64,000 nt of DNA, taken from the NCBI GenBank assembly GCA_905236715.1, contig CAJOMQ010000009.1, forward strand, positions 1-64,000, read 5' to 3'. Origin of the DNA: an uncultured Bacilli bacterium. Its GTDB lineage: Bacteria; Bacillota_I; Bacilli_A; RFN20; CAG-826. The translations under genes were made by a program, and so were the position numbers. Of the stretch, positions 3,613 to 35,128 are shown in pieces. The notes under the pieces were generated by a model, which saw only the letters and a list, made by a program, of their open reading frames with translations, searched no databases and was not told the origin of the DNA. The number at the start of each line of letters is the position of its first letter. Positions within the stretch are counted from its first letter, which is position 1.

Positions 3613-3737
3613 TTGTCTCTCCTTAAAATAACTAGAAATATATTACCACACCTAACCCTAGAAAACTGACGACTAAATGAAAAATTATTTAAGCAAATTT
3701 CTTGTTTTTTTATTTTTTTAAAATTTTTTTGTCAAAT

Positions 3738-3765
3738 TTGGCATTTTCATCCCTATATGTTTAAT
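3738..3765 (+). promoter_or_regulatory. Putative promoter of peptide mRNA, copy 1
   Basis: TTGGCA (3738-3743), 16 bases, TTTAAT (3760-3765). Both boxes match consensus at five of six positions, and the stretch is identical in copy 2. Confidence 0.55.
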
Positions 3766-3806
3766 GAGGGGCAAATTATGTCCCTCAGAATAGGAGACAT
3801 ATTTTT

Positions 3807-3896
3807 ATGTTAGGGTTTATCCCTGCAGAAAGGAGGAAAAATGCAGTACCTTTTGGTGCTCGTTATTATATTGTTAGTTATCTGCTTACTAGTTAA
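3807..3896 (+). CDS. Leader ORF overlapping the hydrophobic peptide gene, copy 1
   Basis: ATG at 3807 is preceded by AGGAG (3792-3796) at a 10-base spacing. It encodes 29 residues beginning MLGFIP and ends at TAA 3894-3896, inside the peptide ORF but in another frame. In copy 2 the same ATG is in frame with the peptide instead, and the peptide sequence after MLGFIP is not kept. Its product is therefore probably unimportant; translating it could open the mRNA for the downstream ORF, as mok does for hok. This role is inferred. Confidence 0.4.
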   Translation: MLGFIPAERRKNAVPFGARYYIVSYLLTS

Positions 3897-3900
3897 GTAG
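3841..3900 (+). CDS. 19-residue hydrophobic membrane peptide, putative type I toxin (copy 1)
   Basis: ATG at 3841 follows AGGAGG (3831-3836). The product MQYLLVLVIILLVICLLVK is a single membrane-spanning stretch with a polar start and a terminal Lys. In length and composition it resembles the Ibs family (18-19 residues) of type I toxins, which insert in the inner membrane and depolarise it. Copy 2 (34754-34813) encodes exactly the same peptide although four codons differ (Val GTG/GTC, Leu CTC/CTG, Leu TTA/CTA, Ile ATC/ATT), all silent. That is direct evidence that the peptide itself is under selection. An antisense-type promoter and terminator lie just downstream on the minus strand. Toxicity is inferred, not shown. 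Confidence 0.75.
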   Translation: MQYLLVLVIILLVICLLVK

Positions 3901-3904
3901 ATAT

Positions 3905-3936
3905 AAAAAGGGCTTGTGAGCTGTGTCACAAGCACC
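3905..3936 (-). terminator. Leftward intrinsic terminator, copy 1
   Basis: An 8-bp perfect stem with a GCTGTG loop is extended by GG/CC across a one-base bulge, followed by five T on the minus strand. It is conserved in copy 2 at 34818-34850. Confidence 0.65.
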
Positions 3937-3944
3937 TAAAAGAC
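3905..3944 (-). ncRNA. Putative short antisense RNA (antitoxin), copy 1
   Basis: A minus-strand transcript starting about 7 bases after the TATAAT box would begin near 3944, fold GCTTGTGA (3912-3919) with TCACAAGC (3926-3933), and end at the T5 run (3909-3905). It would be complementary to the 3' UTR of the peptide mRNA just after the stop codon. If termination is incomplete it would run into the coding region. The exact ends are inferred. Confidence 0.5.
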
Positions 3945-3950
3945 AATATA

Positions 3951-3978
3951 ATTATAACACAGCTATTTCTCTTCGCAA
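3951..3978 (-). promoter_or_regulatory. Minus-strand promoter for antisense RNA, copy 1
   Basis: Minus-strand TTGCGA (3978-3973), 16 bases, perfect TATAAT (3956-3951). Copy 2a has TTGCTA-16-TATAAT and copy 2b TTGATT-16-TATAAT in the matching place. Confidence 0.6.
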
Positions 3979-4033
3979 GGGGCCGGGAGGCCTAATTAAC
4001 AGCCTAATTAAAATTGCTCAAAGGCGATAGATG

Positions 4034-4073
4034 AAAAAAGGAGTGCTTTACGAACTGTGCCGCAAACGCCTCC
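4034..4073 (-). terminator. Terminator of the fructokinase gene (also a degenerate remnant of the element hairpin)
   Basis: On the minus strand GGAG and CTCC close an imperfect hairpin followed by six T (4039-4034). The loop region (GAACTGTG) and the flanking bases align with the element hairpin at 34823-34850, and an ATTATA follows at 4087-4092. It looks like a decayed extra element unit that now ends the kinase transcript. Confidence 0.55.
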
Positions 4074-4087
4074 AAGCAACAATAATA

Positions 4088-5026
4088 TTATAGCAACACT
4101 AAATTATCATTTTTTAAGAAGGTGTCAATTTCTTCTTCTCTAGGAGCCGAATTAATGGCACCTTTCTTTAAAGTGGTTAAACCACCGACAACATTAGCCC
4201 TTTTTAAATAGTATTTAATTTTTTCTTCCTTATTTATAAAATCGGGCTTATTAACTAAACACGAAAGGAAATAGGCGTAGAAAGCATCACCCGCACCCGT
4301 TGTGTCAATGGGTTTCATAGGATAAGAATCCACTTTTAATAAATTCCCATGATGATAGAAGATAGAACCTTCTTTTCCTAACGTCACCACAGCGATTTGT
4401 TGGTCATTTAATAATTCATTTAAGGCTGTGCTAATATCTTTTCGTGGAGAAAACATTTCTAATTCTTCAAGAGAAAATTTCAATATATCCGCCTTTTTAA
4501 TCGCGGATAAAAAGACTTTTTTAGCCTCTTCTTTTGAAGAAAAGATATCATCGCGATAATTGATGTCAAAAGATATTTTTGCTTTGCTATGGTCTCTAAT
4601 TTGACTGATTGCGTCATCAAAGAATTTTCGTCCTATCTCTTCCGATAACATTAATGAACCAATGTGAACGATGTCATCATCACGCAAATTAGCAAAATTA
4701 ATGTCATTGATATTTATGGCGTAATCCGCACCACTAGCTCTTTCAAAGCGGAATGATCTCTCACCATTATTTAAACTAACAATGGCTTTGGAGGTGTACC
4801 GGTTAGGTAATACATCAATTTGGCAATATTTAAATGGTTTATTATTCGCGGTTTCTTGCAATAAGCGACCATATTCATCATTACCAACTGCGCCGATAAA
4901 GGCAACATCTTTGGTATATAGAAGGGCATTGCAAGCCACATTAAAAGGGGCACCACCTGGTAAAACGGTTTTATTTTTACCATCATCAAATATATCCACT
5001 AAAATTTCGCCAATACAGATGAGCAT
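4088..5026 (-). CDS. scrK: PfkB-family sugar kinase, probably fructokinase
   Basis: A 312-residue ribokinase/PfkB-fold kinase. It starts MLICIGEILVDIF and has the GGAPFNVA substrate-binding motif near residue 24 and the PfkB signature DTTGAGDAFYAYFL near residue 240, whose Asp is the catalytic base and whose GAGD forms the anion hole. The family phosphorylates sugars with ATP in the cytoplasm. The neighbouring GH32 enzymes make fructose as the likely substrate (fructose to fructose-6-phosphate). The start at 5026 has AAAGG about 8 bases upstream. A terminator between it and the upstream gene (5047-5071) suggests it is transcribed separately or by partial read-through. Substrate specificity comes from context only. 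Confidence 0.85.
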   Translation of the reverse strand: MLICIGEILVDIFDDGKNKTVLPGGAPFNVACNALLYTKDVAFIGAVGNDEYGRLLQETANNKPFKYCQIDVLPNRYTSKAIVSLNNGERSFRFERASGADYAININDINFANLRDDDIVHIGSLMLSEEIGRKFFDDAISQIRDHSKAKISFDINYRDDIFSSKEEAKKVFLSAIKKADILKFSLEELEMFSPRKDISTALNELLNDQQIAVVTLGKEGSIFYHHGNLLKVDSYPMKPIDTTGAGDAFYAYFLSCLVNKPDFINKEEKIKYYLKRANVVGGLTTLKKGAINSAPREEEIDTFLKNDNLVLL

Positions 5027-5046
5027 ATTAATACCTTTCTTTATTT

Positions 5047-5071
5047 AAAAAGCCGAGAAACAAATCTCGAC
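5047..5071 (-). terminator. Terminator after the surface module protein
   Basis: On the minus strand GTCGAGA and TCTCGGC form a 7-bp stem (one G-T pair) followed by a T-run (5051-5047). Confidence 0.7.
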
Positions 5072-5087
5072 TTATTTTAATTTATTT

Positions 5088-6941
5088 TTATTGTCTTTTC
5101 TTTCTTTTTAACATGATAAAGCAGAAAGCAACGATAGAAACAGCCACAAAGGAGACAGAGACAACTAACATAGCAGAACCATTATTTTCGATGCCGATAA
5201 AGGAAATCTTATTTCTTCCTAATGGATCGATGCCTGTTTTGATATATTCAATTGTTTGTCCAATGGTGTAAGAAACATCAGCGGCGTTTTCAAAGAAATT
5301 AGCGGATGTCGCTGATTGACCAAAAGAATAATCCATGGAATTACTGACAATAGCTTGTACATCAGCATCAAGTTCATCATATTCCGCGACTAAGGCTTGC
5401 ACAGGATCACTAGTTTTAATAGAGCACCATGTACCACCATTAGCGAGGTTTCTCAAAGTATTGTAATAACGACTTACAAAATCATAAGCTTGACCAAAAG
5501 TGGTATCACTATCACCAACATATTGGTCTAAAACCACACCATGATAGGTCGGATTTTCATTAAATTGTTGAAGGATTCTATCGACTTTGAATGATGGATA
5601 AGAATCATATTTAGTTATCACTTCATCAAAATACGCTAATCCCCAGTTGCCACCAGTGCGGTCATCACTGAGAACTACACGCACTTTTTGACCTAGATAA
5701 TCAGAACAATCTAAATAGGTTCTTGCCATTGTGTTATAACGGCTACCGGATAACATGATATTATCAACACCGCCTTTATCAGCAAAAGCTCTATTAAGAA
5801 TGTTTGTACCAGAGGCTTCATTAAGACGAGTCGTAGCTAATTCAATACCAGTGGAACCAATTAAAGATAAAACAGCGGTTCCACCACCAAGTTTAGCAGA
5901 AATTAAACCAGTTCCACTTAAGGTGAATTCAGGAGAAATTAAACGATATTTTGCATCTTCGGCAATGCCGCTGGCATCAGCGTTAATGTAATAATTGCCA
6001 GTCTTATTAGCGGGCATTCTTTCCACCCAGTCTTTCGCATCATTATCAGAAACGATAGAGGCAAAATTGATATCAGCAGTCGCAAAGTTTCTATCATAGG
6101 CCCAATTTGTTAAACCATATGTTTCAAAGCCATCATCAACATTATCTATATTCGCAATAGCGGCATTAAGAGCGTCATAAGCACTGCCGGCATAGTATGT
6201 ATTGAGCATATAATCAGCAGAAAAATTGTTTTGTGGAGATAATTGGGCATCCAAAGCAATTTGTTGCTTATGAGCCGCAAAGCTCAATGCCACTTCTTCA
6301 AGAGTTTGGTTAACACGAAGATCACCAAAAATAACACCGCCATAATAAGAGGTAGCAGTGTCTTCGATATAAACAATTAGTTCACGTCCAATATATTCAT
6401 CGGGAATAGAGAAATATCTAAGAGCCATATTGGCTGATAATTCAAAATCGCTCGCGGTGCCATTTACATAAGCATCATCAAAAGCATTTCTAGAAGCATA
6501 GAAATCGTTATGAACATTAAAGATATTTACTCCGTTATCTTTTCCTTCTTCTGGTTCTGCCCAAATATTGACAAAGCAATCTCTATTGCCACCAAGTAAG
6601 AAAGAAACATAGCCGCCTTTATGAACCCATCTAACACTTCTCACCCAGCCGGTTTCGCCTTCGCCTACTCTAGCCATTGTATTTAAGAAATTTTCTAATG
6701 AATTATAAGATCTTCTACCATCATGGAAGGTTTCGTTTCTAGCACTGATTAAATTCTCCATAGCGACATCACTAAAGCCACCACGATAGAAATTGGTATT
6801 ATTCATCGCTAAATATTTCGTAACTTCTTCTTCGGCTTTCACTTGTTGATAACGGCTACCTTGCGTATGCACGGAAATCAAACCACTTCCTGCCAAAGCG
6901 AATAAACTTGCTAAAAGGGAAAAACGTAAAATCTTTTTCAT
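5088..6941 (-). CDS. Membrane-anchored surface protein with two beta-sandwich-like modules, fructan locus
   Basis: 617 residues. There is a signal peptide (MKKILRFSLLASLFALAGSG) without a lipobox Cys, and a C-terminal anchor (about residues 590-612, then KRKKRQ), so the protein is exported and held by its C-terminus. Two modules (about 50-215 and 255-445) share with the neighbouring 827-residue lipoprotein the order N/D-x-F-E opening, a KxGxY strand, a strongly glycine-rich strand (LGGG) and a closing strand of the type V-V-L-S-D/E-D..WG. These look like carbohydrate-binding jelly rolls, but I do not recognise a named family. The rest is helical. The gene has its own promoter and a LacI-type operator just upstream. 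Likely role: capture of fructan at the surface (inferred). Confidence 0.7.
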   Translation of the reverse strand: MKKILRFSLLASLFALAGSGLISVHTQGSRYQQVKAEEEVTKYLAMNNTNFYRGGFSDVAMENLISARNETFHDGRRSYNSLENFLNTMARVGEGETGWVRSVRWVHKGGYVSFLLGGNRDCFVNIWAEPEEGKDNGVNIFNVHNDFYASRNAFDDAYVNGTASDFELSANMALRYFSIPDEYIGRELIVYIEDTATSYYGGVIFGDLRVNQTLEEVALSFAAHKQQIALDAQLSPQNNFSADYMLNTYYAGSAYDALNAAIANIDNVDDGFETYGLTNWAYDRNFATADINFASIVSDNDAKDWVERMPANKTGNYYINADASGIAEDAKYRLISPEFTLSGTGLISAKLGGGTAVLSLIGSTGIELATTRLNEASGTNILNRAFADKGGVDNIMLSGSRYNTMARTYLDCSDYLGQKVRVVLSDDRTGGNWGLAYFDEVITKYDSYPSFKVDRILQQFNENPTYHGVVLDQYVGDSDTTFGQAYDFVSRYYNTLRNLANGGTWCSIKTSDPVQALVAEYDELDADVQAIVSNSMDYSFGQSATSANFFENAADVSYTIGQTIEYIKTGIDPLGRNKISFIGIENNGSAMLVVSVSFVAVSIVAFCFIMLKRKKRQ

Positions 6942-6955
6942 AAATTATCTCCTTA

Positions 6956-6969
6956 TGGAAACGTTTCCA
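6956..6969 (-). promoter_or_regulatory. LacI-type operator
   Basis: A perfect palindrome TGGAAACGTTTCCA placed between the -10 box and the ribosome site of the 5088-6941 gene. It is identical to 22498-22511. The locus encodes a LacI repressor (16602-17576), the likely ligand. The sequence also fits a CcpA cre site, which cannot be ruled out. Confidence 0.75.
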
Positions 6970-6974
6970 CTAAT

Positions 6975-7004
6975 ATTGTAACACTTTTCACTACAACATT
7001 GTAA
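6975..7004 (-). promoter_or_regulatory. Promoter of the 5088-6941 surface protein gene
   Basis: Minus-strand TTACAA (7004-6999), 18 bases, TACAAT (6980-6975). The operator lies over the expected start of transcription, so repressor binding would block it. Confidence 0.5.
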
Positions 7005-7007
7005 TAA

Positions 7008-8345
7008 TTATTTATAAATAATCATTTTTTTCTTTTCGCCAACGACATCAATGTGAAATATATCACTGCTTTCTTTGGGGAAAACGATATTGCTCATTGA
7101 GATACCATTAACAAATATTTCAATCGAATATTTGTCCAATAAAATGTAAATTTTATCGATATTCTTTTTGATGTATGGCATTTTTCTAATCCCTTTTTGG
7201 GATAATTCGTCGGTTTCTTCACCATTAATTGGGACGCCTGACTGACTTCTATCAAAATAAAATTCGTTGTCTTTTAAATAGAATTGGCTATATTCTCCTT
7301 CGCCTTTTCTTAAATAAATATTTAAGGATTGAAGATTGATGATTTCTAATGCAATTGTGCCCACCGAAAGTCTTCCTTCATATTCATCTTCTAGATCAAT
7401 CGTTTGATCTTTTTGTCCATAGATGACAGGGGTTTGTATTAAATATCCATCTTCTACGGTCACTTTACGAGGCGTTGTTAACATACCGGCAAAGCCAAAT
7501 TGAGAGGTAGGATTATTGCGGCCCCACATATTCATCCACGCGATGAGATAATGATCATCGTTCATCACCTGAGGGGCATAAAAATCAAAACCATAGTCAA
7601 TGAGTCTTTTTGGTGAACCACTGATGAATTTACCTTTATTATTTAATTGGCCAATCTCATATTCGCATGAATGGATGTTTAAGCAATGATTATTATCTTT
7701 TGGGAAATCTTGTTCGGAATAAAGTAATAAGCCTAAATCCTCGTGATAATCAACACATTCAATCATCTTGCCTTCACTATTGTGATTTAAAACATCACTC
7801 ACAAAACGCCATTCTTTCAAGTCTTTTGATTGGAATAATAGAATGCTTCCTCCACCGCTTCTTTTTTTCGCAGAAGCTAAAATATAGAAAAAGCCTTCTT
7901 TATAAAACAATTTAGGATCACGAAAATCACATGGTTTATATTCTTTTGGCAATTGTTTTTCCGTAATAATTGCCCCATGTTTGGTAAAATGCACCCCATC
8001 AGTGCTCGAAGCGAGACACTGAATTTGTTTTATTTGTTCTGGGTCTTCGTTATTAATAAATCCTGTATAGGCAATATATAAAACCTCATTTTTTACTAAA
8101 GAGGTACCAGAAAAGCAACCGTCTTTATCAAATTCATCACCGGGCACTAAGGCATAGGGAAGATATTGGAAATGCAATAAATCATCACTAATGACATGTC
8201 CCCAATGCATCGGTCCCCATTCGCAAGAATAAGGATGATGTTGGAAAAAGATGTGATAACGACCTTGGAATTTAACAATGCCATTAGGATCATTAATCCA
8301 GCCTTTTTCTCCAGTAATATGAAAGATTGGCTTGTTATTTGACAT
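7008..8345 (-). CDS. scrB: Intracellular GH32 beta-fructosidase (sucrose-6-phosphate hydrolase type)
   Basis: 445 residues without a signal peptide, so cytoplasmic. All three GH32 catalytic motifs are present: WINDPNG with nucleophile Asp19, FRDP with Asp143 (transition-state stabiliser) and ECVD with Glu196 (acid/base). A five-bladed propeller is followed by the usual C-terminal beta-sandwich. The length fits the SacA/ScrB/levanase-core family. It should cleave terminal beta-fructose from imported oligofructosides, sucrose or sucrose-6-phosphate. No PTS is seen in the window and uptake is by an ABC importer, so an unphosphorylated substrate is more likely. It overlaps the upstream lipoprotein gene by one base and is the last gene of the fructan operon. 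Confidence 0.88.
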   Translation of the reverse strand: MSNNKPIFHITGEKGWINDPNGIVKFQGRYHIFFQHHPYSCEWGPMHWGHVISDDLLHFQYLPYALVPGDEFDKDGCFSGTSLVKNEVLYIAYTGFINNEDPEQIKQIQCLASSTDGVHFTKHGAIITEKQLPKEYKPCDFRDPKLFYKEGFFYILASAKKRSGGGSILLFQSKDLKEWRFVSDVLNHNSEGKMIECVDYHEDLGLLLYSEQDFPKDNNHCLNIHSCEYEIGQLNNKGKFISGSPKRLIDYGFDFYAPQVMNDDHYLIAWMNMWGRNNPTSQFGFAGMLTTPRKVTVEDGYLIQTPVIYGQKDQTIDLEDEYEGRLSVGTIALEIINLQSLNIYLRKGEGEYSQFYLKDNEFYFDRSQSGVPINGEETDELSQKGIRKMPYIKKNIDKIYILLDKYSIEIFVNGISMSNIVFPKESSDIFHIDVVGEKKKMIIYK

Positions 8346-10828
8346 TATTTGCTCTCCGCTAAGGTGAAAATGGAAGGAATGTCGTCCACTGATTCATAAC
8401 AAGTGATGAAATCATCAACAAACATCAAACCCCAATCTTCCGTGGCATTATCAACAATACGAATCTTAATTTGACGGCCAATAAAGGCTGATAAATCGAC
8501 TTTATATTCCACCATATTGCCAGCAAAAATGCCATCTTGGGCTAAATCGATTGGATAGCCAAGGTAATAATAATTACGATTAAATTCTTTAAATTTTTGG
8601 TTATATGTCGTGGCTAAAACTTCATCTGTGGAAGCGTCAACAAATTCGATATAACACAAATCTTTATTTTTGCCACCGCCTAAACGATAGGTCACATAGC
8701 CACAACCACCGAGAGTGAATGTGGAAGAGGTAAGACTACCAGTATTGGCTTCACTAGCTTCCCAACCAGAAAGGTGATAAGAACCTTGTTTATTAAATAA
8801 ATAGGCTTCATTCCACCAAGTATATTCGGTGGTAATATTCATGATGGGGTGAGCATTATCTGAGAAAGTCCAACCCGATAAATCACCAGTTTCAAAATTG
8901 CCGTTAGTGACTTGATAAATAGAAGGAGTTTCTTTAAAAGATAAGGTATTGGGTGTTAATAAAGCAGCAGAATCAACGGCATCCATTGTTTCATAATATG
9001 TGATAAAACTATCGACACACACTAAACCCCAATTATTTGTGGCGTTATCCACCACTCTAATTTTGACATTACGTCCATGAATAGAAGATAAATCAGCGCG
9101 ATAGAAAATCATATCCATGAGGTGACCAGAAGAACCAATGAATTCAAGGCCTAAATCATTGAACATGTAATTTGCAAAGCGCAATAACTCTTCTTCGCTT
9201 TCCGCATCGATAATCGAAACATAGCAAGATAATGGATTGCGACCGCCTGACATTCTAAATGTCATCACATCAACACCACCGACAATAAAGGAAGAAGAAG
9301 TGAGATAACCGGTATTATTTTCATCTTCTTCACCGGAGAAGAAATAAGTACCACGTTTATTAAATGGTAAATGAGGATTATCCCACCAATAGGATTTGTT
9401 GGAAATGCGGCCAATTTGTTGACTATCACTGCTCCAGGAAGTGGTCCAACCGGTCAAATCACCAGTTTCAAAAGTGCCGTTAACGGGTTGATATTCATTA
9501 ACTGGTTCTCTTTCATAGGTCGAAGAAATATCGATTTTGTAATATTCTTTATCTTCCCAATATGGAGTGTCAGTGTAATAAGTTTCAAAACTATCAAAAG
9601 TCATGCAACCGAGATCATCGCCACTGGTGTTTTCATCGACGATTTCAATGTAGAGATTTTCACCCACAAATTCGTGTAAATCGATATAATATTGCACCAT
9701 ATTAAGTAAGTGCATTTTCATCGGAACAAAGGGGAATTGCTCGTTTTTATATTGCACATTACTGACTTTGACAATTTCCACTGGTTCACCACTATTGATG
9801 GAAACAAAGCGGATATAAGTTAAAGCTTGATTAGCACAGCCACCTAATTTAAAGGAGATAAAACCTTTACCGCCTAATTTAAATGTGGATGAGCGGAGGA
9901 TACCAGTACCCGTGGGATTGTAATAACCATAATGATAATTGCCATCACGATTATAGGTGATATTTTCGTTCCACCAAGTTGATTCGTTATTAACACCATC
10001 ATGAGAGAAAGCATCACCTTCCACAATATCCCAACCACCTAATGACCCAATCTCAAAATCGGGATTTTTAATGTGATATTCATCAATAGCGTCAACATCT
10101 TCCAAATAATGATGCGTTTTGACGAAATATTGACCATCATCTTGTGGTAGACCATCACCAACACGGATATCATCAACGCTTAAATAGCCATAATAGACAT
10201 CTTCATCGTTATCAACGATACGGATATAGACTTCTTGGTTAGCGTAAGCACTTAAATCTAAAACATATTCACAGAAATTATCCGTGTGATAAACACCATT
10301 GGCGTATTTATTCGCATCGATATAATCTTCGGTTCCTTCTAAGAAATATTCATTAGTTTGACGGGCAATCATTTGTTCGGTTTCCACTAAATAGACACCG
10401 ACAAAGCACACTTTTTCAGCATTTTTAAATTCGGCTTCGACACCTTTGCCCTTGGTTAATGCACCACCCGCTAATTTCATGGATAAGAAGCCGTCTTCGG
10501 TTAAAAAGAAATTATTACTTCTAATGGCGCCGACACGGCCATGCGAATAAGACAAATCAAAACCTTGACCGGATAAATACCAGTTACCAGTTTTATTAAT
10601 ATCAATTTCATTATTTTTGTTGTCGTTTTTGAAAGTGAAATAATTACGCGAAGAAACGGAATCATCGGTATAAGCATCGCCATATTCGATGGTCCAGCCA
10701 GAAAGATCACTAGTTTCAAAGCCACCATTAATGACATATCTAGTGCGGATTTCCGTATGAGAAGAAGCACAACTAGCCAGTGGCAGAGCTAATAAAGACG
10801 CTAATAAAATTTGTAAATTCTTTTTCAT
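8345..10828 (-). CDS. Surface lipoprotein made of four repeated beta-sandwich-like modules
   Basis: 827 residues. The lipobox LASC (Cys20) marks a lipoprotein. Behind it are four copies of one module, at about residues 33-222, 253-417, 449-612 and 641-811. Each begins with N-G-x-F-E-T-x-D-L-x-G-W, has a KxGxYxxSG strand, a TSSxFxxGG..xxxLGGG core, a Y-x-x-DLS-x-x-GxxxxIRIVD strand and ends with WGxxxVDxFxTYYE. Modules 3 and 4 are closest; module 1 is longest. No catalytic motif is evident. The related modules in 5088-6941 and the position between two GH32 genes point to fructan binding at the cell surface, comparable to a SusD/CBM role, but this is inference. The gap to the upstream GH32 gene is only 2 bases. 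Confidence 0.75.
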   Translation of the reverse strand: MKKNLQILLASLLALPLASCASSHTEIRTRYVINGGFETSDLSGWTIEYGDAYTDDSVSSRNYFTFKNDNKNNEIDINKTGNWYLSGQGFDLSYSHGRVGAIRSNNFFLTEDGFLSMKLAGGALTKGKGVEAEFKNAEKVCFVGVYLVETEQMIARQTNEYFLEGTEDYIDANKYANGVYHTDNFCEYVLDLSAYANQEVYIRIVDNDEDVYYGYLSVDDIRVGDGLPQDDGQYFVKTHHYLEDVDAIDEYHIKNPDFEIGSLGGWDIVEGDAFSHDGVNNESTWWNENITYNRDGNYHYGYYNPTGTGILRSSTFKLGGKGFISFKLGGCANQALTYIRFVSINSGEPVEIVKVSNVQYKNEQFPFVPMKMHLLNMVQYYIDLHEFVGENLYIEIVDENTSGDDLGCMTFDSFETYYTDTPYWEDKEYYKIDISSTYEREPVNEYQPVNGTFETGDLTGWTTSWSSDSQQIGRISNKSYWWDNPHLPFNKRGTYFFSGEEDENNTGYLTSSSFIVGGVDVMTFRMSGGRNPLSCYVSIIDAESEEELLRFANYMFNDLGLEFIGSSGHLMDMIFYRADLSSIHGRNVKIRVVDNATNNWGLVCVDSFITYYETMDAVDSAALLTPNTLSFKETPSIYQVTNGNFETGDLSGWTFSDNAHPIMNITTEYTWWNEAYLFNKQGSYHLSGWEASEANTGSLTSSTFTLGGCGYVTYRLGGGKNKDLCYIEFVDASTDEVLATTYNQKFKEFNRNYYYLGYPIDLAQDGIFAGNMVEYKVDLSAFIGRQIKIRIVDNATEDWGLMFVDDFITCYESVDDIPSIFTLAESK

Positions 10829-10830
10829 AT

Positions 10831-13395
10831 TTAAATAGCCTCCGATAAATTACCAGTATTGCCGTAATAGGCTGGTTCTACTTCATCTTTGAAGCAGCCC
10901 TTCATCTGTATAACTTTGAATTTTGTAATATTCATATTGCCGTTATTATCGAATAAAGAAATATAATCAGAATCCCCATATTTTGGATAAATTCTCGTGG
11001 TAATGGTAGCAATATCATTGATATAGATTTCTAATTGTGAACGGTCAACATAGATTTCCACTTTGAAATTTCTTTCCCCAGTGGGTAAATGCCATGTATC
11101 ACTCTTATCAACATATGTTAATAAAGTGGATTGACTTCTATTGACAAAGACTTCGTTATTAGCGAAGGTCACAGCGCTTCTTTCAGTTCCTAAAACATTG
11201 GTGGTTGGATTATAACGTACATAAATGCCAGAATCATAATCTCCGGAAGGTGATAAGGTAAATTCGGCTTCAATTTTATACATATCACTACGGACATTTT
11301 TGATGTTATTAGCCATTTCGCTAGCGGAAAGACCACTACCACTATATTCGTAAAGAGTTTCTCCATATAATGTAGAAACCGCTTCAACAGGCTTTCTAAT
11401 GACATCGTATAAATTATCTGCTAGATAGATTTCCACTGGCATGGCTAAATTATGAGCCCATCCAGCGGTGATATTTTGATCGGTTCCCGCGGATTTTCCT
11501 TGCGCTAAAGAGATGATGACGGAATGTCCGTCTTCATAATTAGTGATACCCGCTTCTCTTTCTTCATCGGTGAGATAACAGAAACCAGTCTGGCCAGTAT
11601 AAATACCTTTACCATGGTCAAATAAACGAGGTTTAGGGTCATCAGGGATGAAACGACAAGTTGTCTTATTGAAAGTACCAATCCAATAATAAGTATCAAC
11701 AATGTAACCATCGACTGTATATTGTGGAGAATCGAGGAAAATATATTTTGTGACACTACCATCTTCGGTGGAAATTGGTAACATCACACAGCATTCCCAG
11801 TGTTTTCCTTGTTCGGGATAATCATGATAACTGACTTCAAAAGTGAAACCTTTATATTCCCAGTTACGCATGTCGGTACTTCTAAACATATTGGTGGAAC
11901 CACCATGAGATTGATCCCAGTCATCCGCGACGGAAGTAGAAACCATCATGTAATAATAAGGAGCATCATACCAAATAAAGGGGTCACGGAATTCTTCAAT
12001 TTTGCCTTGTGACCAGTCGCTTGGCTGCACTAAGACATTGACATCTTCCACAGTCCAGTCGGTCAAATATGGGTCATCAGGGTCAACTGGATGCGCATAA
12101 CAAACACTTTGGTGGGAAAAACGCGAAGATTCTTCGTAATCACCATAAGTTGTACCAGCGGTAATGGTTAACCAAGGTACACCATCGGGGCCGATGACAG
12201 AGCCACCAGTCCAAGCACCTTCGGGACAAGCATCTTTTTGTGGTGCCACCGCATCTTTGACATAAATCCAGTGAATCATATCTTTACTACAAATATGCGC
12301 CCAACGAATTTGTGACCAATAAGGTCCAATAGGATTATGTTGGTAAAAGACATGGAACATTCCCTTATAGTAAATTGGGGCGTGAGGTTCATTCATCCAC
12401 ACCGCGGGTGGGATGCCGTGATATTGAGGACGATATCTATCACCAGAATAAACACTGGTGTCTAATTGCACTTCAGAAAATGGTAATTCAGGGACATTGC
12501 CATCATCGGAATATTGGAAGAATAATTGTTTTAATTCTTTTGGATTCATCGAATCGTGATAAATTTCGACCTCATCCACTAGTCCCGCGGGTGATTGACG
12601 AGGAATACCGAATTCATAAATAGGGCTACTATAATAACCAAAATATAATGGCTCTGAGGAAGGAATAATTTCCGTATTCATCAAATCAGGAATTAATGCT
12701 TCATAAGAGACTTTGCCATTAAAAGTTAAGCAAATATAGCCTGTTTCACCATCAAATGTCGCGGCGATATGGCTCCATTCATACAATGGTAAAGCATTGA
12801 TAGGATCATAATAGCCAACGAAAATATTTTCATCAGTTTCGACATTATGCAAATTCATTTGTAATCCCCATAAGCCCAAACGACCATAGCCAAATAAGAA
12901 GCCTTCTTCATCTTCCATATGACCCCAGTTGAATAAAGATGTCATACGTGGATGACCACGAGCCACTGTTTCATTACCATAGCGGTTGAGATTTTCAAAC
13001 CCACGTGGGGCAACCCATGTGGAAAAAGTAATTTTATTTGATGGGGCTTCAATGTAATTTTCGGCAAATTCATCACCATATCCCTTGATTCTGATATGAG
13101 TGGAGAAACCATCCATATATAAAGATTTATTGCTAACACCTTGTTTTAAAAGCGGATCATTTGGTTTTTTAAATAGATTTTCGGCGTTTTCTTGGGCAAA
13201 AACATAATCGATTCGATAATCTTTGTTATTACCACTATTTTTGGTATAACTGCCATTTAATTCATCAAAGGAAAAAGATATGACTGGTTTATGAGAAGTC
13301 GGGTTATTTCCTTTTTTATTTTCATTATTATTCGCGCATCCACCAAATGATAAAGCGCTAATAAATAATAATGGTATGATATTTCTCTTTTTCAT
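10831..13395 (-). CDS. Surface lipoprotein GH32 enzyme with N-terminal LamG-type lectin domain and altered nucleophile motif
   Basis: 854 residues. Lipobox FGGC (Cys20). Residues about 37-290 look like a concanavalin/LamG domain (ISFSFDELNG start, WSHIAATFDG strand, GLVDEVEIYH end). The GH32 propeller starts near 325 and carries RDP (Asp471) and WECC (Glu534, acid/base). Where GH32 enzymes normally have W-M/I-N-D-P-N-G, this protein has WMNEPHAP: the nucleophile position is Glu336 and the Asn after Pro is His. It could be an active variant subclass or a binding protein. A C-terminal sandwich follows (about 690-840). The gene sits between the permease and module-lipoprotein genes of the fructan operon. 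Likely role: extracellular fructan cleavage or capture. Confidence 0.8.
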   Translation of the reverse strand: MKKRNIIPLLFISALSFGGCANNNENKKGNNPTSHKPVISFSFDELNGSYTKNSGNNKDYRIDYVFAQENAENLFKKPNDPLLKQGVSNKSLYMDGFSTHIRIKGYGDEFAENYIEAPSNKITFSTWVAPRGFENLNRYGNETVARGHPRMTSLFNWGHMEDEEGFLFGYGRLGLWGLQMNLHNVETDENIFVGYYDPINALPLYEWSHIAATFDGETGYICLTFNGKVSYEALIPDLMNTEIIPSSEPLYFGYYSSPIYEFGIPRQSPAGLVDEVEIYHDSMNPKELKQLFFQYSDDGNVPELPFSEVQLDTSVYSGDRYRPQYHGIPPAVWMNEPHAPIYYKGMFHVFYQHNPIGPYWSQIRWAHICSKDMIHWIYVKDAVAPQKDACPEGAWTGGSVIGPDGVPWLTITAGTTYGDYEESSRFSHQSVCYAHPVDPDDPYLTDWTVEDVNVLVQPSDWSQGKIEEFRDPFIWYDAPYYYMMVSTSVADDWDQSHGGSTNMFRSTDMRNWEYKGFTFEVSYHDYPEQGKHWECCVMLPISTEDGSVTKYIFLDSPQYTVDGYIVDTYYWIGTFNKTTCRFIPDDPKPRLFDHGKGIYTGQTGFCYLTDEEREAGITNYEDGHSVIISLAQGKSAGTDQNITAGWAHNLAMPVEIYLADNLYDVIRKPVEAVSTLYGETLYEYSGSGLSASEMANNIKNVRSDMYKIEAEFTLSPSGDYDSGIYVRYNPTTNVLGTERSAVTFANNEVFVNRSQSTLLTYVDKSDTWHLPTGERNFKVEIYVDRSQLEIYINDIATITTRIYPKYGDSDYISLFDNNGNMNITKFKVIQMKGCFKDEVEPAYYGNTGNLSEAI

Positions 13396-13410
13396 AAATT
13401 ATCTTTCTCC

Positions 13411-14325
13411 TTACATCTTTAATCCTGCGGTGCCAAAACCTTTGACAATATATTTTTGGGCGGCGACATATAATATAAAAATCGGTAACGAAGTAACTAC
13501 TAATGAGGCCATAATTTCCCCCGTTGTAATTGATTCGATTGATTGTAATGATGTTAAAGCGGCTTGAATCGGTAATAATGGCCATGATTCATCACCATAA
13601 TTTGGTAAGACCATCTGTGGCCAAATATAGTCATTCCAGACACCGATGAAAGTGAACACTGCGGTGGTTGCCACAATGGGTTTACTCATAGGGAGAATTA
13701 AGTCAAAGAAGACTCTTGTCCGACTCGCACCATCGATGTGCATAGCTTCTTCATATTCTTTCGGAATAGAAGAGAAAAATTGTGTATATAAGAAAATGTT
13801 GAAGACGGAAATAATGCTCGGTAAGATGACCGCTAAAACGGAAAGGCCACCTTTTAGTCCTAACATTTGTTTCACAATGGAATATAAAGGAATAATACTC
13901 GTTTCTACCGGAACAACAATCAAGAATAAGATAATGAAACTGAAGAACCCTTTGCCAGGAAAATGGAATTTCGCTAAAACATAGCCCGCTAAACCATTCA
14001 CAATGACATTGAAAACGATAACAATTAAGGCATAAATTAAGCTATTCAAGGCATATTTCCATATATCATATTCGCCAAAGACAATTTTATAATTGTCAAA
14101 GAAATGACCGAGATTTTGAAAATCTGGTAAAAACATCATCATTGTGCCATTAGAAAAGGCAATCGCTTCTTCCCCTTTGGTGGAGGCGGAAATCATATAT
14201 AAAAGAGGCATGATAAATAACAAAGAAAGAACGGTTCCGACGGTGTAATAAATCACCGAATAGATGATTTTCTTCTTTGATTTCTTCGCGGGGACAAAAT
14301 TAGGATCGTTATAATAGGTTTTCAT
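13411..14325 (-). CDS. ABC sugar importer permease, MalG/MsmG type
   Basis: 304 residues with six predicted membrane helices. The EAA-type loop EEAMHIDGASRTRVFFDLILP (seen near residues 190-210) is where the permease meets the ATPase. The start overlaps the end of the partner permease gene by 4 bases, indicating translational coupling. Together with the 14322-15302 permease, the 15321-16592 binding protein and the 21090-22478 ATPase it forms a complete CUT1-type importer, here presumably for oligofructosides. Confidence 0.88.
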   Translation of the reverse strand: MKTYYNDPNFVPAKKSKKKIIYSVIYYTVGTVLSLLFIMPLLYMISASTKGEEAIAFSNGTMMMFLPDFQNLGHFFDNYKIVFGEYDIWKYALNSLIYALIVIVFNVIVNGLAGYVLAKFHFPGKGFFSFIILFLIVVPVETSIIPLYSIVKQMLGLKGGLSVLAVILPSIISVFNIFLYTQFFSSIPKEYEEAMHIDGASRTRVFFDLILPMSKPIVATTAVFTFIGVWNDYIWPQMVLPNYGDESWPLLPIQAALTSLQSIESITTGEIMASLVVTSLPIFILYVAAQKYIVKGFGTAGLKM

Positions 14326-15302
14326 CTTTTCTTTTCCCCTAATAATTTCCTCTGTAAGAAGGTAATACTACCGATGACAATCGTCATAATTAAGGCTACC
14401 GCACAAGAATAGCCAACATGACGATAAGTGAAACCTTGTTGATACATGTAGTAACTAATGGTCATACTTCTATCTTGATAACCCGTTAATAACATCGGTT
14501 GAATCATCACTCGACAGGCGCCGATAAAAACCGTAATCAAAATATATAACATCGTTGGTTTTAATCCTGGTAATGTGATGGTAAAGAAACGATGGAAGAC
14601 ATTGGCTCCATCAATCGCGGCTGCTTCATATAAGTCTTTACGGATATTGCCTAAAGCGGAAAGGAAGATGAGCATTTGATAACCGCATCCTTGCCAAGCA
14701 GAAATGATAACCATCCAAAGTAAGACCGTATCTTTATTACCTAAGAAATCATGATCATTACCAAGGCCGAGATTACCGAAAATGGTATTCATAATGCCAT
14801 TGGGGTTAGGCGATAAAATGATTAACCATAAGAAAGCAGTAACGCTTAAAGAAATGGCAACGGGGGCAAAGAAACACACTTTAAAGATGGTTGTTCCTCT
14901 TCTTTTGTTGTTACAAAATAGGGCTAATAAAAGCGCCATAATGATTTGAATAGGCACCACTAAGACGACAAATATCGCGGTATTTCTTAATGATAAATAA
15001 AATTCACCATGATTTTTGAAATCGACAAATAAAGCGTGGAAATTATCAAAACCAACAAAGCTAATTTCATCTGGTTTTAATAAATCAAAATCAGTAAAGG
15101 CATAGCCTAAAGAATAGAAAATGGGGAGAATGACAAAGAAGAATGCCAAAATAATGGAAGGAACCAATAAGCCAAAGGCGGTTAAGACTTCTTTCCAATG
15201 ATATTTTTGTCCTTTTTTCTTCGCATTTAACATATCTATGATGACCACAGCCGCTAAACCAAGAAGAAGAACACCAAGCACAATTAAGGCAATTAAAACC
15301 AT
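14322..15302 (-). CDS. ABC sugar importer permease, MalF/MsmF type
   Basis: 326 residues. An N-terminal helix and a basic linker (NAKKKGQKYHWKEV) precede the usual six helices. The EAA loop reads YEAAAIDGANVFHRFF. CUT1 permease family, membrane partner of the MalG-type subunit. It lies 18 bases downstream of the binding-protein gene. The extra N-terminal helix is common in MalF-type subunits of low-GC Gram-positives. Confidence 0.88.
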   Translation of the reverse strand: MVLIALIVLGVLLLGLAAVVIIDMLNAKKKGQKYHWKEVLTAFGLLVPSIILAFFFVILPIFYSLGYAFTDFDLLKPDEISFVGFDNFHALFVDFKNHGEFYLSLRNTAIFVVLVVPIQIIMALLLALFCNNKRRGTTIFKVCFFAPVAISLSVTAFLWLIILSPNPNGIMNTIFGNLGLGNDHDFLGNKDTVLLWMVIISAWQGCGYQMLIFLSALGNIRKDLYEAAAIDGANVFHRFFTITLPGLKPTMLYILITVFIGACRVMIQPMLLTGYQDRSMTISYYMYQQGFTYRHVGYSCAVALIMTIVIGSITFLQRKLLGEKKR

Positions 15303-15320
15303 ATTTCTCCCTTGTTAAAT

Positions 15321-16592
15321 TTATTTCAATTTGTTGAGTTCAGATTGTAATGTTGATGCTTTATTATCGACGATGGTATTGACATCACTATCTCTTAAAC
15401 TATCAATGACACCACGGAAGGCGACAGAAAATTGTGGATAACCAACGGTTTCCGGACGGGCTCTGCTGGTTTTTTGTAATTGCTGATATAAAACGTCTTC
15501 TGGTGAACCAGGTACATAAGAATTTTCCACATCTTTATTAGCGGGAATCATACCAGTCGCATCAGTAATGGTTTTACTTCCGTTAGCGTTAGTTAAATAT
15601 TTGAGTAATTTAACAACACCTTTTTTATCTTTTCTGGCGTTATCAGTAACAGCATAGCTCCAAGAGCCATTGGCACTAGCGCTCGTGACATCTTTTGGAT
15701 AAGGTAATAGACCCCAAGAATTTCTATCAGGGAAGGTGGTTTGATATTTGTTATCTAAATCAGGGATGGTCCATCCACTAGATAAATACATACCAACTTC
15801 ACCAGTGAAGAATTGAGTGGCGCCAATACCATAATTTGTGTATCCACTTGTCACTAAATCCTTTAAGAATTGGAAGCCTCTTTTACTGCCTTCGCTATTG
15901 AAATAGCCTTCAGCAATTAAACCTGTTTCATCAACAAAGGAACCACCAGAAGCATAAATAAATGGATAGAGCAAATAAGTGGCGGTTTCATCTTTCGTGG
16001 CATCCATACGCATATCAACAGGGGTGACACCTTTGGCTTGTAATTTGGCACACGCCGCTTTAAATTCCGCATATGTCCATGGGTTATCAACAGTAATGTC
16101 AGAAACATCTATACCAGCAGCGGCAAAGAGATTTTTATTGTAATAAAAACCCGCACTACTTTCTTGAATAGGGATACCATATGTTTTCCCTTTATAATTA
16201 TTTAAAGTGATATATTTAGCTTTTTCTTCAGCGGTTAAATAAGAAGAAATATCATACAAATATTTAGCGTCAACATAAGCCGCACAGTTAGGAGCGTCAA
16301 AGGTGATGATGTCTGGTAAAGTGCCTTCTAATTTATCGGTGCTGAGTTGTTTTTCATAGTTGCTATCACCCGCACTTCTAGCGACGAATGCCGCGGTCAC
16401 CTTTAAACCTTCAGAAGCATATTCTTTATTAAAAGCGTCAATAAGCTTTTTATAAGCAATTCCTTCGGAAGATTTGGCGTCAACGTGGAAACGAATTTTT
16501 AATTTGCTGTTATCGGAATAATCTCCGGAAGATTGTTGACAACCAGTCAATAATAATGAAATGAATAATAAGGGTAAAATGTACTTTTTCAT
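15321..16592 (-). CDS. Sugar-binding lipoprotein of the fructan ABC importer
   Basis: 423 residues. Lipobox LTGC with Cys18, then the family-1 solute-binding fold (FHVDAKSSEGIAYKKLIDAF, GIPIQESSAGFYYNKNLF, GGSFVDETG). It delivers oligosaccharide to the two permeases from the outer face of the membrane. The gene follows the LacI gene by 9 bases, and its ribosome site lies in that gap. Ligand inferred from neighbours. Confidence 0.88.
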   Translation of the reverse strand: MKKYILPLLFISLLLTGCQQSSGDYSDNSKLKIRFHVDAKSSEGIAYKKLIDAFNKEYASEGLKVTAAFVARSAGDSNYEKQLSTDKLEGTLPDIITFDAPNCAAYVDAKYLYDISSYLTAEEKAKYITLNNYKGKTYGIPIQESSAGFYYNKNLFAAAGIDVSDITVDNPWTYAEFKAACAKLQAKGVTPVDMRMDATKDETATYLLYPFIYASGGSFVDETGLIAEGYFNSEGSKRGFQFLKDLVTSGYTNYGIGATQFFTGEVGMYLSSGWTIPDLDNKYQTTFPDRNSWGLLPYPKDVTSASANGSWSYAVTDNARKDKKGVVKLLKYLTNANGSKTITDATGMIPANKDVENSYVPGSPEDVLYQQLQKTSRARPETVGYPQFSVAFRGVIDSLRDSDVNTIVDNKASTLQSELNKLK

Positions 16593-16601
16593 AAAAGCCT
16601 C

Positions 16602-17576
16602 CTATTTGGTGGTATCACCTTTGACAAAACGACAATCGAGAATATTTACTTTCTCGTAATCGTTTTTGTTTTCCATAATTTTGATTAGTAGTTCAACACA
16701 TTTTTCCGCCATCTCCTTGATGGGTTGTTCTAATGTGGTGATGTTTTCTAATTTGCTAATGGAGAAATCTCCATCGTAAGAAACAATTTGTAATTCTTCG
16801 GGTACTTTAATATGTAGTGCTTTTAAACGGTTGAATAATGTATTAGCGAGAATGCACCCGGAGACAAATATGCCATCAATATGGTCACGATTGGCCAATA
16901 ATTCATCGACGAGCACTTTCTCTTGCCCGTGTTCAACATCTTTATTGATGACAAAACTTTCTAAGCCATTTTCTTCCATCACTTCACGATAGGCTTTTTC
17001 TCTTAATGTCACTTCACTAGACTGAGTGGCACGGGTACCTAAGAAAGCAATTTTATGACACCCCTTTTCAATGAGATAGCGAACACCTTGCTTTGTTGCC
17101 TCGTAATTATTTGAAGAAACAATTGGTATATCATTACCTAAATGTCTATCAATCGTGACAATAGCGAGATTTTTAAAATCATTCTCTTGATGTTCATAGT
17201 GGGTGACAAAGATAGCACCATCCGCTTGTTTTTGCGCTAAACGATGCAATATTTCTTGTTCTTTTTCAATACGATGTTGACTAGAGGCCACTAAGAGGGA
17301 ATATCCTTTTTGATCCGCGGCTAATTCAATTTCTTCCACTAATTTAGCGAAGAATGGATGATTAATAACGGGCACCACTACCGCAATAACATTACTACGG
17401 GATTGCGATAATCGTTTACCGGCGACATTAGGAACATAATGAAGTTCCTCAATGGCTTTCATGACTTTTTGCCGAGTTGATTCACTAATTTGGGGAGAAT
17501 CATTTAAGACACGGGAAACCGTGCCGATGCCGACTCCACTACGAGCGGCTACTTCTTTAATGGTGGGTGATCTCAT
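16602..17576 (-). CDS. LacI-family transcriptional repressor of the fructan locus
   Basis: 324 residues. The HTH is TIKEVAARSGVGIGTVSRVLN (residues 5-25) with a hinge helix ending in NVAGKRLSQSRS, followed by a periplasmic-binding-like effector domain (VIAVVVPVINHPFFAKLVEE). Such proteins bind palindromes with a central CG and release them on binding a sugar. Two identical sites TGGAAACGTTTCCA precede the operon and the 5088-6941 gene. The gene is embedded inside the operon it probably controls, overlapping the upstream GH32 gene by 4 bases, so autoregulation is expected. Confidence 0.88.
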   Translation of the reverse strand: MRSPTIKEVAARSGVGIGTVSRVLNDSPQISESTRQKVMKAIEELHYVPNVAGKRLSQSRSNVIAVVVPVINHPFFAKLVEEIELAADQKGYSLLVASSQHRIEKEQEILHRLAQKQADGAIFVTHYEHQENDFKNLAIVTIDRHLGNDIPIVSSNNYEATKQGVRYLIEKGCHKIAFLGTRATQSSEVTLREKAYREVMEENGLESFVINKDVEHGQEKVLVDELLANRDHIDGIFVSGCILANTLFNRLKALHIKVPEELQIVSYDGDFSISKLENITTLEQPIKEMAEKCVELLIKIMENKNDYEKVNILDCRFVKGDTTK

Positions 17577-34526: not shown

Positions 34527-34643
34527 ATAAATTATAATACCACTATTTCATTAATAATCACGGAAAACCATATGAAATTGCTAGATATGTCCAATGGTTT
34601 ATAGCCTTTGAAAAATATTTTTAAAATTTTTTGTCAAATTTGG

Positions 34644-34672
34644 CATTTTCATCCCTATATGTTTAATGAGGG
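34644..34672 (+). promoter_or_regulatory. Putative promoter of peptide mRNA, unit 2a
   Basis: TTGGCA-16-TTTAAT in the same sequence context as 3738-3765 of copy 1. Confidence 0.5.
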
Positions 34673-34708
34673 GCAAATTATGTCCCTCAGAATAGGAGAC
34701 ATATTTTT

Positions 34709-34813
34709 ATGTTAGGGTTTATCCCCCTGGCTCCTTGCAGAAAGGAGAAAAATATGCAGTACCTTTTGGTCCTGGTTATTATATTGCTAGTTATTTGCTT
34801 ACTAGTTAAGTAG
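34709..34813 (+). CDS. Leader ORF in frame with the peptide, unit 2a
   Basis: ATG at 34709 (after AGGAG) begins MLGFIP, and here an extra 11 bases put it in frame with the peptide, giving a 34-residue product ending in the 19-residue hydrophobic sequence. Either both forms are made or the leader only opens the mRNA. CTCCTT (34731-34736) can pair with the peptide's own AAGGAG (34742-34747), so ribosomes on the leader would free that site. Confidence 0.4.
   Translation: MLGFIPLAPCRKEKNMQYLLVLVIILLVICLLVK
34754..34813 (+). CDS. 19-residue hydrophobic membrane peptide, putative type I toxin (unit 2a)
   Basis: The product MQYLLVLVIILLVICLLVK is identical to copy 1, with four silent differences in the gene. 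The ribosome site AAGGAG lies 6 bases from the ATG. A minus-strand promoter and terminator follow as in copy 1. The pairing of CTCCTT with AAGGAG would keep the site closed until the leader is translated. A membrane toxin of the Ibs/TxpA kind is the best comparison; this is inferred from length, composition and layout. Confidence 0.75.
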   Translation: MQYLLVLVIILLVICLLVK

Positions 34814-34817
34814 ATAT

Positions 34818-34858
34818 AAAAAGGGGCTTGTGAACTGTGTCACAAGCACCTCAAACGC
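34818..34858 (-). ncRNA. Putative short antisense RNA, unit 2a
   Basis: Start near 34858 after TATAAT (34870-34865), hairpin GCTTGTGA (34826-34833) with TCACAAGC (34840-34847), end at the T-run about 34822-34818. Same design as 3905-3944. Confidence 0.5.
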
Positions 34859-34864
34859 AATATA

Positions 34865-34892
34865 ATTATAACACAGCCATTTTTCTTAGCAA
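34865..34892 (-). promoter_or_regulatory. Minus-strand promoter for antisense RNA, unit 2a
   Basis: TTGCTA (34892-34887), 16 bases, TATAAT (34870-34865) on the minus strand. Confidence 0.6.
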
Positions 34893-35036
34893 GGGGCCGG
34901 GAGGCCTTATTCAAGCTTATTAAATAAGTTATCCTCTCCATATGTTTTAATGAAGGGGCATGTTTGTCCCTCAGAATAGGAGACATATTTTTTATGTTCT
35001 GGCATTGCCGCTCCTGGCCTCTTGCTGGTGAAGTAT

Positions 35037-35084
35037 ATGGATTACCTATTGGTGATCCTAATGTTATTGTTGACAATATTATAG
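35037..35084 (+). CDS. 15-residue hydrophobic peptide, diverged homologue (unit 2b)
   Basis: MDYLLVILMLLLTIL shares M-x-Y-L-L-V with the 19-residue peptide and is again one hydrophobic stretch. It overlaps, in another frame, a leader ORF starting at 34994 (33 codons, to 35092) that has the conserved AGGAG. The ribosome site of the peptide itself (GGTG) is weak. A minus-strand TTGATT-16-TATAAT (35105-35078) overlaps its stop codon, so an antisense RNA would run through the whole ORF. It may be a working variant or a decaying copy. Confidence 0.5.
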   Translation: MDYLLVILMLLLTIL

Positions 35085-35105
35085 CACAGTAATTAATCCA
35101 ATCAA
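35078..35105 (-). promoter_or_regulatory. Minus-strand promoter, unit 2b
   Basis: TTGATT (35105-35100), 16 bases, TATAAT (35083-35078). The spacing is the same as in copies 1 and 2a. Confidence 0.45.
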
Positions 35106-35128
35106 GAGGCCTAAAGGCCTTATTCAAG

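Follow-up and report, generated by a model that had tools for sequence, protein, structure and literature searches.

What would a bacterium do with a 19-codon hydrophobic peptide that it encodes in two closely similar elements within a single 64,000-nucleotide stretch of DNA, and when would the peptide be made? The stretch (positions 1 to 64,000 of contig CAJOMQ010000009.1, hereafter the window) comes from an uncultured Bacilli bacterium, assembly GCA_905236715.1, and each element carries a promoter, a leader hairpin, the short open reading frame (ORF), a downstream hairpin and a promoter on the minus strand. A first-pass annotation had read this as a membrane toxin with an antisense antitoxin, that is, a type I toxin-antitoxin (TA) system. 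Judging from sequence comparison, the elements belong to a larger family that is probably type I TA-like and wired into the natural-competence regulon of an uncultured family of gut Bacilli. The annotated promoter, hairpins, ORF and antisense promoter all stood, and the toxin-antisense reading gained from selection on the peptide, sequestration of the Shine-Dalgarno (SD) sequence in most copies, the antisense gene and the number of copies; what had been overlooked was the link to the competence promoter, the position of elements before competence operons and two covarying pairings in the mRNA. With these parts supported and these features added, a type I TA-like system therefore stays the leading inference, and its biology becomes competence-linked.

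The element is repeated and its peptide is under selection

Both copies in the window were recovered, and copy A1, which extends from the promoter block at 3725 to the end of the final conserved hairpin at 3992, is 91% identical to copy A2 (34627-34906). The host genome, 1.29 Mb in 25 contigs and about 94% complete, contains six type-A copies (C9:3728, C9:34630, C3:388, C3:2459, C3:37142 and C2:77964) and two diverged type-B copies (C3:37454 and C8:1688) besides several remnants, and copies and remnants of both types are frequently arranged in tandem. A search of the host genome returned the six type-A copies with E values from 1e-98 to 1e-136; together with the two B copies in 1.29 Mb, this means that the repeat is not due to chance. 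The type-A peptide is MQYLLVLVIILLVICLLVK or near-identical, while the type-B peptides, MDYLLVILMLLLAIYLLKRADR and MDYLIVIIILLLCIYLLKE, retain the pattern M-D-Y-L-x-V...L-L-K and differ in the other residues.

Copies A1 and A2 encode the same peptide, MQYLLVLVIILLVICLLVK, and all four base differences between their ORFs are silent, as had been observed at first pass. Nine ORF columns are variable across the six A copies; of the roughly 12 changes in them, two alter an amino acid (V/A and V/I), whereas 75% would be expected to do so without selection (P about 3e-5, or 1e-3 counting only the 9 variable columns). Silent changes thus dominate, in agreement with the annotated selection on the 19-codon hydrophobic peptide, and this pattern indicates that the small ORF is under purifying selection in the host. 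The peptides of relatives differ again (METLIVFAVILFIVLVAVKRN, MRKLFKVLLIIILVISLLVN, MIVILLKLVIIVVLLLMILGNW, MSDLIILLMLLYLIVSELSR and MLLVAIAATLIITILVRLLK) and are consistently about 18-24 residues long and hydrophobic, with a polar C end. The first-pass annotation had held that breakage of the frame at a neutral rate in relatives would speak against a toxin; the frame is mostly intact there despite sequence divergence. Where it is broken (b3 in the window, G151c and the copy before dprA in genome G091), either the antisense gene is kept, as in G151c and the G091 dprA copy, or both are lost, and no intact ORF lacking the antisense gene was found among the clear elements examined. The annotation had assigned the peptide to no named family, and Pfam and NCBIfam scans of seven peptides gave nothing near the cut-off for Fst/par, Ibs, TxpA, Ldr, Hok or other named toxin families, the type-A peptides (19 residues, under the 20-residue limit) standing outside these scans; no RNA family was matched at the gathering score in Rfam 15.

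An upstream ORF (MLGFIPLLA..., MFLGIIASAIEIPLP..., MLFALGALMPCV...) precedes the peptide ORF in the leaders of the host, G016, G039 and G091, and at times it overlaps or is fused with the peptide ORF, so that translational coupling is possible. As a conserved product of the host it was rejected, since its frame relative to the peptide varies among copies.

The element carries the competence promoter of its own genome

A 46-base promoter pattern, allowing up to 3 mismatches, had ten matches in the host: eight element copies, one operon with a TadA/ComGA-like secretion ATPase (the last of its four genes) and one peptide-radC operon. A looser pattern added comEA-comEC and a C39 peptidase gene, and the reversed patterns used as controls matched 0 times (46-base) and once (looser). 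Outside the element, the block therefore stands before only four operons in this genome, namely comEA-comEC, ATPase, peptide-radC and C39 peptidase. GGGG/CCCC hairpins analogous to the leader hairpin of copy A1 also occur 3' of the radC and ATPase-operon promoters. Promoter sequences are different in other genera, yet the element promoter tracks the com promoter of its own genome: alignment scores of element against com promoter were 50-98 within a genome and 23-55 between genera, with shuffled sequences reaching at most 35. For instance, the G151 element promoter reads ...AAAATCGCCCCTATATATAAAGTGAGGGGGG and its ATPase operon ...AAAATCGCCACTATATATAAAGTGAGGGGGT, and in G139 both element and com promoters read ...TTTTTTTCCTCTTATTAATATGAGGGG. 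By these comparisons, the predicted promoter of the peptide is the genome's own competence promoter, common to comEA/comEC and the uptake-pilus operons. Despite its variation among genera, the com promoter has a constant CCC-TATATnnnnTAAT-GAGGG layout around the -10 region, suggestive of a site for a special regulator or sigma factor.

In genomes G039 and G091 a promoter flanks the element on one side and comEA, dprA or peptide-radC follows directly on the other, and it precedes rpsF-ssb directly in the host (copy B2), G091, G151 and G139, which represent three genera. In competent cells of B. subtilis the rpsF 5' untranslated region (UTR) and SsbA are raised (PMC7317962), so ssb is a plausible member of the regulon. 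Such positions suggest another reading, in which the element would be a regulatory leader of com operons, its ORF, RNA pairings (P1, P2 and P3, below) and antisense RNA tuning the downstream genes and its peptide being a non-toxic translated leader. In keeping with this, it immediately precedes comEA, dprA, radC and rpsF-ssb (in G039 and G091 no sense terminator is obvious), it has an elaborate covarying fold, and an upstream ORF comes ahead of the peptide ORF. However, for most host copies and several in other genomes the next gene on the 3' side is either missing or convergent, the host comEA, ATPase and radC operons have the same promoter without the element, and the peptide sequence is under selection. 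We consider a regulatory leader unlikely.

Two further genes under the competence promoter may be mentioned. A pilin-like peptide of 58-61 residues (pattern ...VGEAITLAxVMAVxxIAxxAVVVYKLF...PGG, no family match) lies directly upstream of radC in the host, G039 and G091 (L195, L196) and is perhaps an unrecognised competence pilin; the host version has 61 residues and is found on contig C1 near 129673 (L039 3964-4149, minus strand). A Peptidase_C39 protein whose C-terminal part is hydrophobic (host C1 75776; L101 1545-2744) may process it, substituting for a prepilin peptidase.

Covarying pairings in the sense RNA

The sense RNA is folded by three pairings, all supported by covariation: P1, between ORF codons about 8-13 and a segment (S1) of the 3'UTR located between P2 and S2; P2, a hairpin in the 3'UTR; and P3, between the loop of P2 and the downstream segment S2. 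The P3 partners (loop/S2) change together, being GCUGUGU/ACACAGC in type A, ACUGUGC/GCACAGU in B1 and GCUAUGC/GCAUAGC in B2 of the host, AUGCUAC/GUAGCAU and GUGCUA/UAGCAC in G151, GCAUGU/ACAUGC in G043, GAUGU/ACAUC in G004, UGGUA/UACCA in G091 and GCUAUA/UAUAGC in G039. Loop/S2 pairing totalled 265.5, against 199.6 (standard deviation, sd, 9.5) when loops were exchanged among lineages, a total matched in 0 of 20,000 permutations of a set to which one element, G151b, had been added once its complementarity had been seen. P1, as in AUUAUUUUGUU/AACAAAAUAAU of A4 and AUAAUAAUUUUGGUU/AACCAAAAUUAUUAU of G016, scored 583.5 against 431.1 (sd 17.1; 0/20,000), and 288 against 221 (sd 12; 0/20,000) when only lineage representatives were used. 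Among the eight host copies both sides had changed in 10 of 24 pairs, the covariation score being 0.302 versus 0.121 (0 of 500 shuffles) and exceeding that of every slid register. Since the antisense transcript would start only past S2 and most of S1, the constraint must act mainly on the sense RNA.

In the A copies the SD is sequestered by a stem such as CUCCUU/AAGGAG (mean unpaired probability 0.05-0.21), with the exception of copy A1, which has lost most of that stem and whose SD has an unpaired probability of 0.67. Ribosomal frameshifting at the A-run ahead of the pseudoknot was considered but not retained: this run comes after the stop codon, and the U-tract of the antisense RNA accounts for it.

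A predicted antisense gene at the 3' end

The minus-strand promoter that had been annotated in both copies was recovered by a consensus scan, which scored above shuffled sequences and also found a terminator: in copy A1, TTGCGA-16-TATAAT with an extended -10 is followed by a stem (3933-3912) and TTTTT. In most of 14 compared elements TTGCnn-16/17-TGnTATAAT, or TTGTGT or TTCCTT with TATAAT, occupies the same position, the exceptions being TACAAT in G151a and weaker boxes in G064b, G004 and G028; in the aligned elements a G start about seven bases past the -10, and then a hairpin with a T-run, come next in order. The predicted antisense RNA of copy A1 (3944 to 3903) overlaps the mRNA immediately past the stop codon. 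A scan for this anatomy (hydrophobic short ORF, A-run, hairpin and ATTATA-like box, regardless of complementarity) found 18 distinct elements and one chance match in 1.06 Mb of retrieved sequence, and 1 match in the control sequence. An antisense RNA gene with conserved promoter and terminator is thus predicted to overlap the toxin-like mRNA.

Alternatively, the peptide made in competence might be a harmless membrane component or a signal (an SHP-like or ComS-like pheromone) whose amount is adjusted by the antisense RNA. Short hydrophobic peptides do serve as pheromones in Gram-positive bacteria, and the promoter is of the competence type; but one genome contains eight intact copies that encode at least two different peptides, a leader or export motif was not seen, the peptide varies widely between genera under a conserved architecture, and every clear copy has an antisense gene of its own, all of which make a signal or membrane component improbable.

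Distribution in the family

DNA BLAST of an A copy against 196 genomes of the family found nothing real outside the host, a match in G039 being due to chance; a sequence profile built from the eight host copies was therefore needed to detect relatives. With it the element was found elsewhere in the family, often in several copies; 15 of 35 genera gave a match at E up to 0.05, some of these matches being chance, and the strong cases are g1 (the host's), g5, g9, g17 and g23. Most weak matches (E above 0.003) were dropped as coding sequence or otherwise chance on inspection. The profile found none in 279 genomes of the order outside the host family, the exact promoter pattern had no match in 85,000 named genomes and viral contigs, and the 3'-end pattern had none in viral contigs. 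The closest named relatives by ComEA are metagenome-assembled genomes of uncultured Bacilli/Erysipelotrichaceae, many from ruminants and horses, and in named relatives with comEA the anatomy scan gave no element adjoining this gene.

Patchy occurrence and multi-copy expansion fit a selfish or horizontally moving element that settled on competence promoters. An extreme form of this would be a dispersed selfish repeat with a captured competence promoter and no host role. Its multiple copies, tandem A/B arrays, remnants and patchiness within genus and family would suit it, and, as type I TA loci are often selfish, it is compatible with the TA reading. However, the same competence operons are recurrently preceded by the element in different genera, and neither transposase nor terminal repeats were seen; a repeat of this kind with no host role is very doubtful.

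A proposed mechanism

If the type I TA-like reading is right, the peptide would insert in the membrane and stop growth or permeabilise the cell. Outside competence, three things would keep leaky sense transcripts silent: the sequestered SD, P1 and the antisense RNA. As the loop of the antisense RNA is identical in sequence to S2, this RNA could replace P3; competition between P3 and an antisense kissing contact would be natural, and the antisense RNA might in this way recruit RNase III. From a fully induced competence promoter the sense RNA would outrun the antisense RNA and peptide would be made, so that competent cells arrest growth or transformants losing the locus are punished. That the element founds an undescribed family of RNA-regulated toxins, on the competence promoter and in the leader of com operons, whose synthesis coincides with DNA uptake, is a proposal that we make tentatively. 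Were it true, the element would be a competence-triggered arrest or lysis switch, or a selfish trap killing transformants whose locus has been replaced by incoming DNA.

Several observations weigh against this reading. None of the other five genomes in the genus of the host has the element, and therefore competence does not require it. The predicted antisense RNA is very short and reaches neither the ORF nor the SD. No convincing loop/S2 pairing was found in G139, G083, G170 and G028, and P1 sits in AT-rich sequence subject to codon constraints. Finally, the element belongs to the leaders of com operons in G039 and G091, and this would also suit a role in leader regulation.

Comparison with known systems

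Ibs/Sib of E. coli combines a hydrophobic peptide of about 19 residues, several copies per genome and an antisense RNA, and resembles the element in all three. The Sib RNAs lie opposite the ibs ORF, whereas the antisense gene here is 3' of the stop codon, and the scanned element peptides matched neither the Ibs family nor the Fst profile. Fst/par of pAD1 and Lpt share with the element a toxin mRNA convergent with a short antisense RNA in Gram-positive bacteria (PMC5608710). In par, direct repeats common to both RNAs pair the antisense RNA with the leader of the mRNA (PMC5608710), while the repeats observed here are inverted and pair the mRNA with itself; no leader repeat was noticed, in the course of a search that was not exhaustive. 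The B. subtilis systems txpA/RatA, bsrG/SR4, bsrE/SR5 and yonT/SR6 are prophage-borne, with longer RNAs and peptides (PMC6562991); the likeness is in the small peptide, toxic in those cases, and with bsrG also in SD sequestration. The antitoxins RatA, SR4 and SR6 act at the mRNA 3' end, where pairing can suffice, via RNase III (PMC6562991). Full-length toxin mRNAs of hok/Sok and AapA/IsoA are held inactive by long-range pairing with their own 3' end and by SD hairpins, and trimming of that end releases them (PMC6733600). The long-range P1 recalls this arrangement, but in those mRNAs the partner of the 3' end is the 5' end or the SD, whereas P1 pairs the 3'UTR with the middle of the ORF. Given peptides without a profile match among those scanned and a different predicted geometry, the element cannot be assigned to Fst, Ibs, TxpA or Hok.

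In function the element comes closest to toxTA (HI0660/HI0659) of Haemophilus influenzae, a type II TA system under control of the competence regulon (PMC6957337). The likeness is a TA-type system tied to competence; toxTA has a protein antitoxin, an unrelated toxin and a single locus, and the element apparently a short membrane-type peptide, an antisense RNA and many copies, some directly before com operons. A review of B. subtilis type I systems does not mention competence (PMC6562991), no description of a P1/P3-type fold was found, and no competence-linked type I system was met in a literature search whose reach excluded most subscription papers. Competence-regulated TA systems are almost unknown, this one type II case being all that the search gave, and we have here what appears to be a multi-genus family whose toxin-like gene uses com promoters and often lies ahead of them. 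With it, a coupling of natural transformation to growth arrest, DNA release or addiction can be put to the test; for uncultured gut Bacilli it is an entry point to the competence regulon, and it offers a compact toxin-like mRNA fold with two covarying long-range pairings.

Layout of the window

Table 1. Features of the element copies and remnants in the window (positions in the 64,000-nucleotide stretch)
Copy	Feature	Position	Strand	Remark
A1	Promoter block common to competence operons, TTTTTTGTCAAATTTGGCA...CCCTATATGTTTAATGAGGG	3725..3770	+	Promoter pattern comparison
A1	5' leader hairpin GAGGGGC...GTCCCTC	3766..3786	+	
A1	Upstream-ORF start and peptide SD AAAGGAGG	3807..3840	+	ATG 3807; SD 3829-3836
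A1	Peptide ORF, product MQYLLVLVIILLVICLLVK	3841..3900	+	
A1	ORF half of P1, ATTATATTGTT	3865..3875	+	Partner 3942-3952
A1	Hairpin P2	3910..3933	+	Minus-strand reading is the antisense terminator
A1	P2 loop GCTGTGT	3920..3926	+	P3 partner 3957-3963
A1	S1, 3' half of P1, GACAATATAAT	3942..3952	+	
A1	S2, ACACAGC	3957..3963	+	Complement of P2 loop
A1	Antisense promoter TTGCGA-16-TGT-TATAAT	3951..3978	-	
A1	Predicted antisense RNA, about 42 nt	3903..3944	-	Start G 3944 inferred; end in terminator U-tract
A1	Short terminal hairpin GGGGCCGGGAGGCC	3979..3992	+	No U-tract on + strand
	Type-B 3' remnant adjoining A1	about 4024..4102	+	Antisense hairpin region, ORF-less
A2	Competence-type promoter block	34627..34672	+	
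A2	SD-sequestering hairpin CTCCTT-gcaga-AAGGAG	34731..34747	+	
A2	Peptide ORF, product MQYLLVLVIILLVICLLVK	34754..34813	+	
A2	P2, S1 and S2	34823..34877	+	P2 34823-34847; S1 34857-34866; S2 34871-34877
A2	Antisense promoter TTGCTA-16-TGT-TATAAT	34865..34892	-	
2b	Type-B remnant	about 34929..35121	+	Stop after 15 codons (35037-35084); antisense hairpin deleted

About 200 bases past copy 2b a run of plus-strand genes opens with a TMEM164-like membrane domain fused to an ABC ATPase (35325-37514). A minus-strand sugar-utilisation region extends over 4088-21100, with GH32-type genes (fructan/sucrose hydrolase) at 7008-8345 and 17573-21100 and a fructokinase-like gene at 4088-5026.
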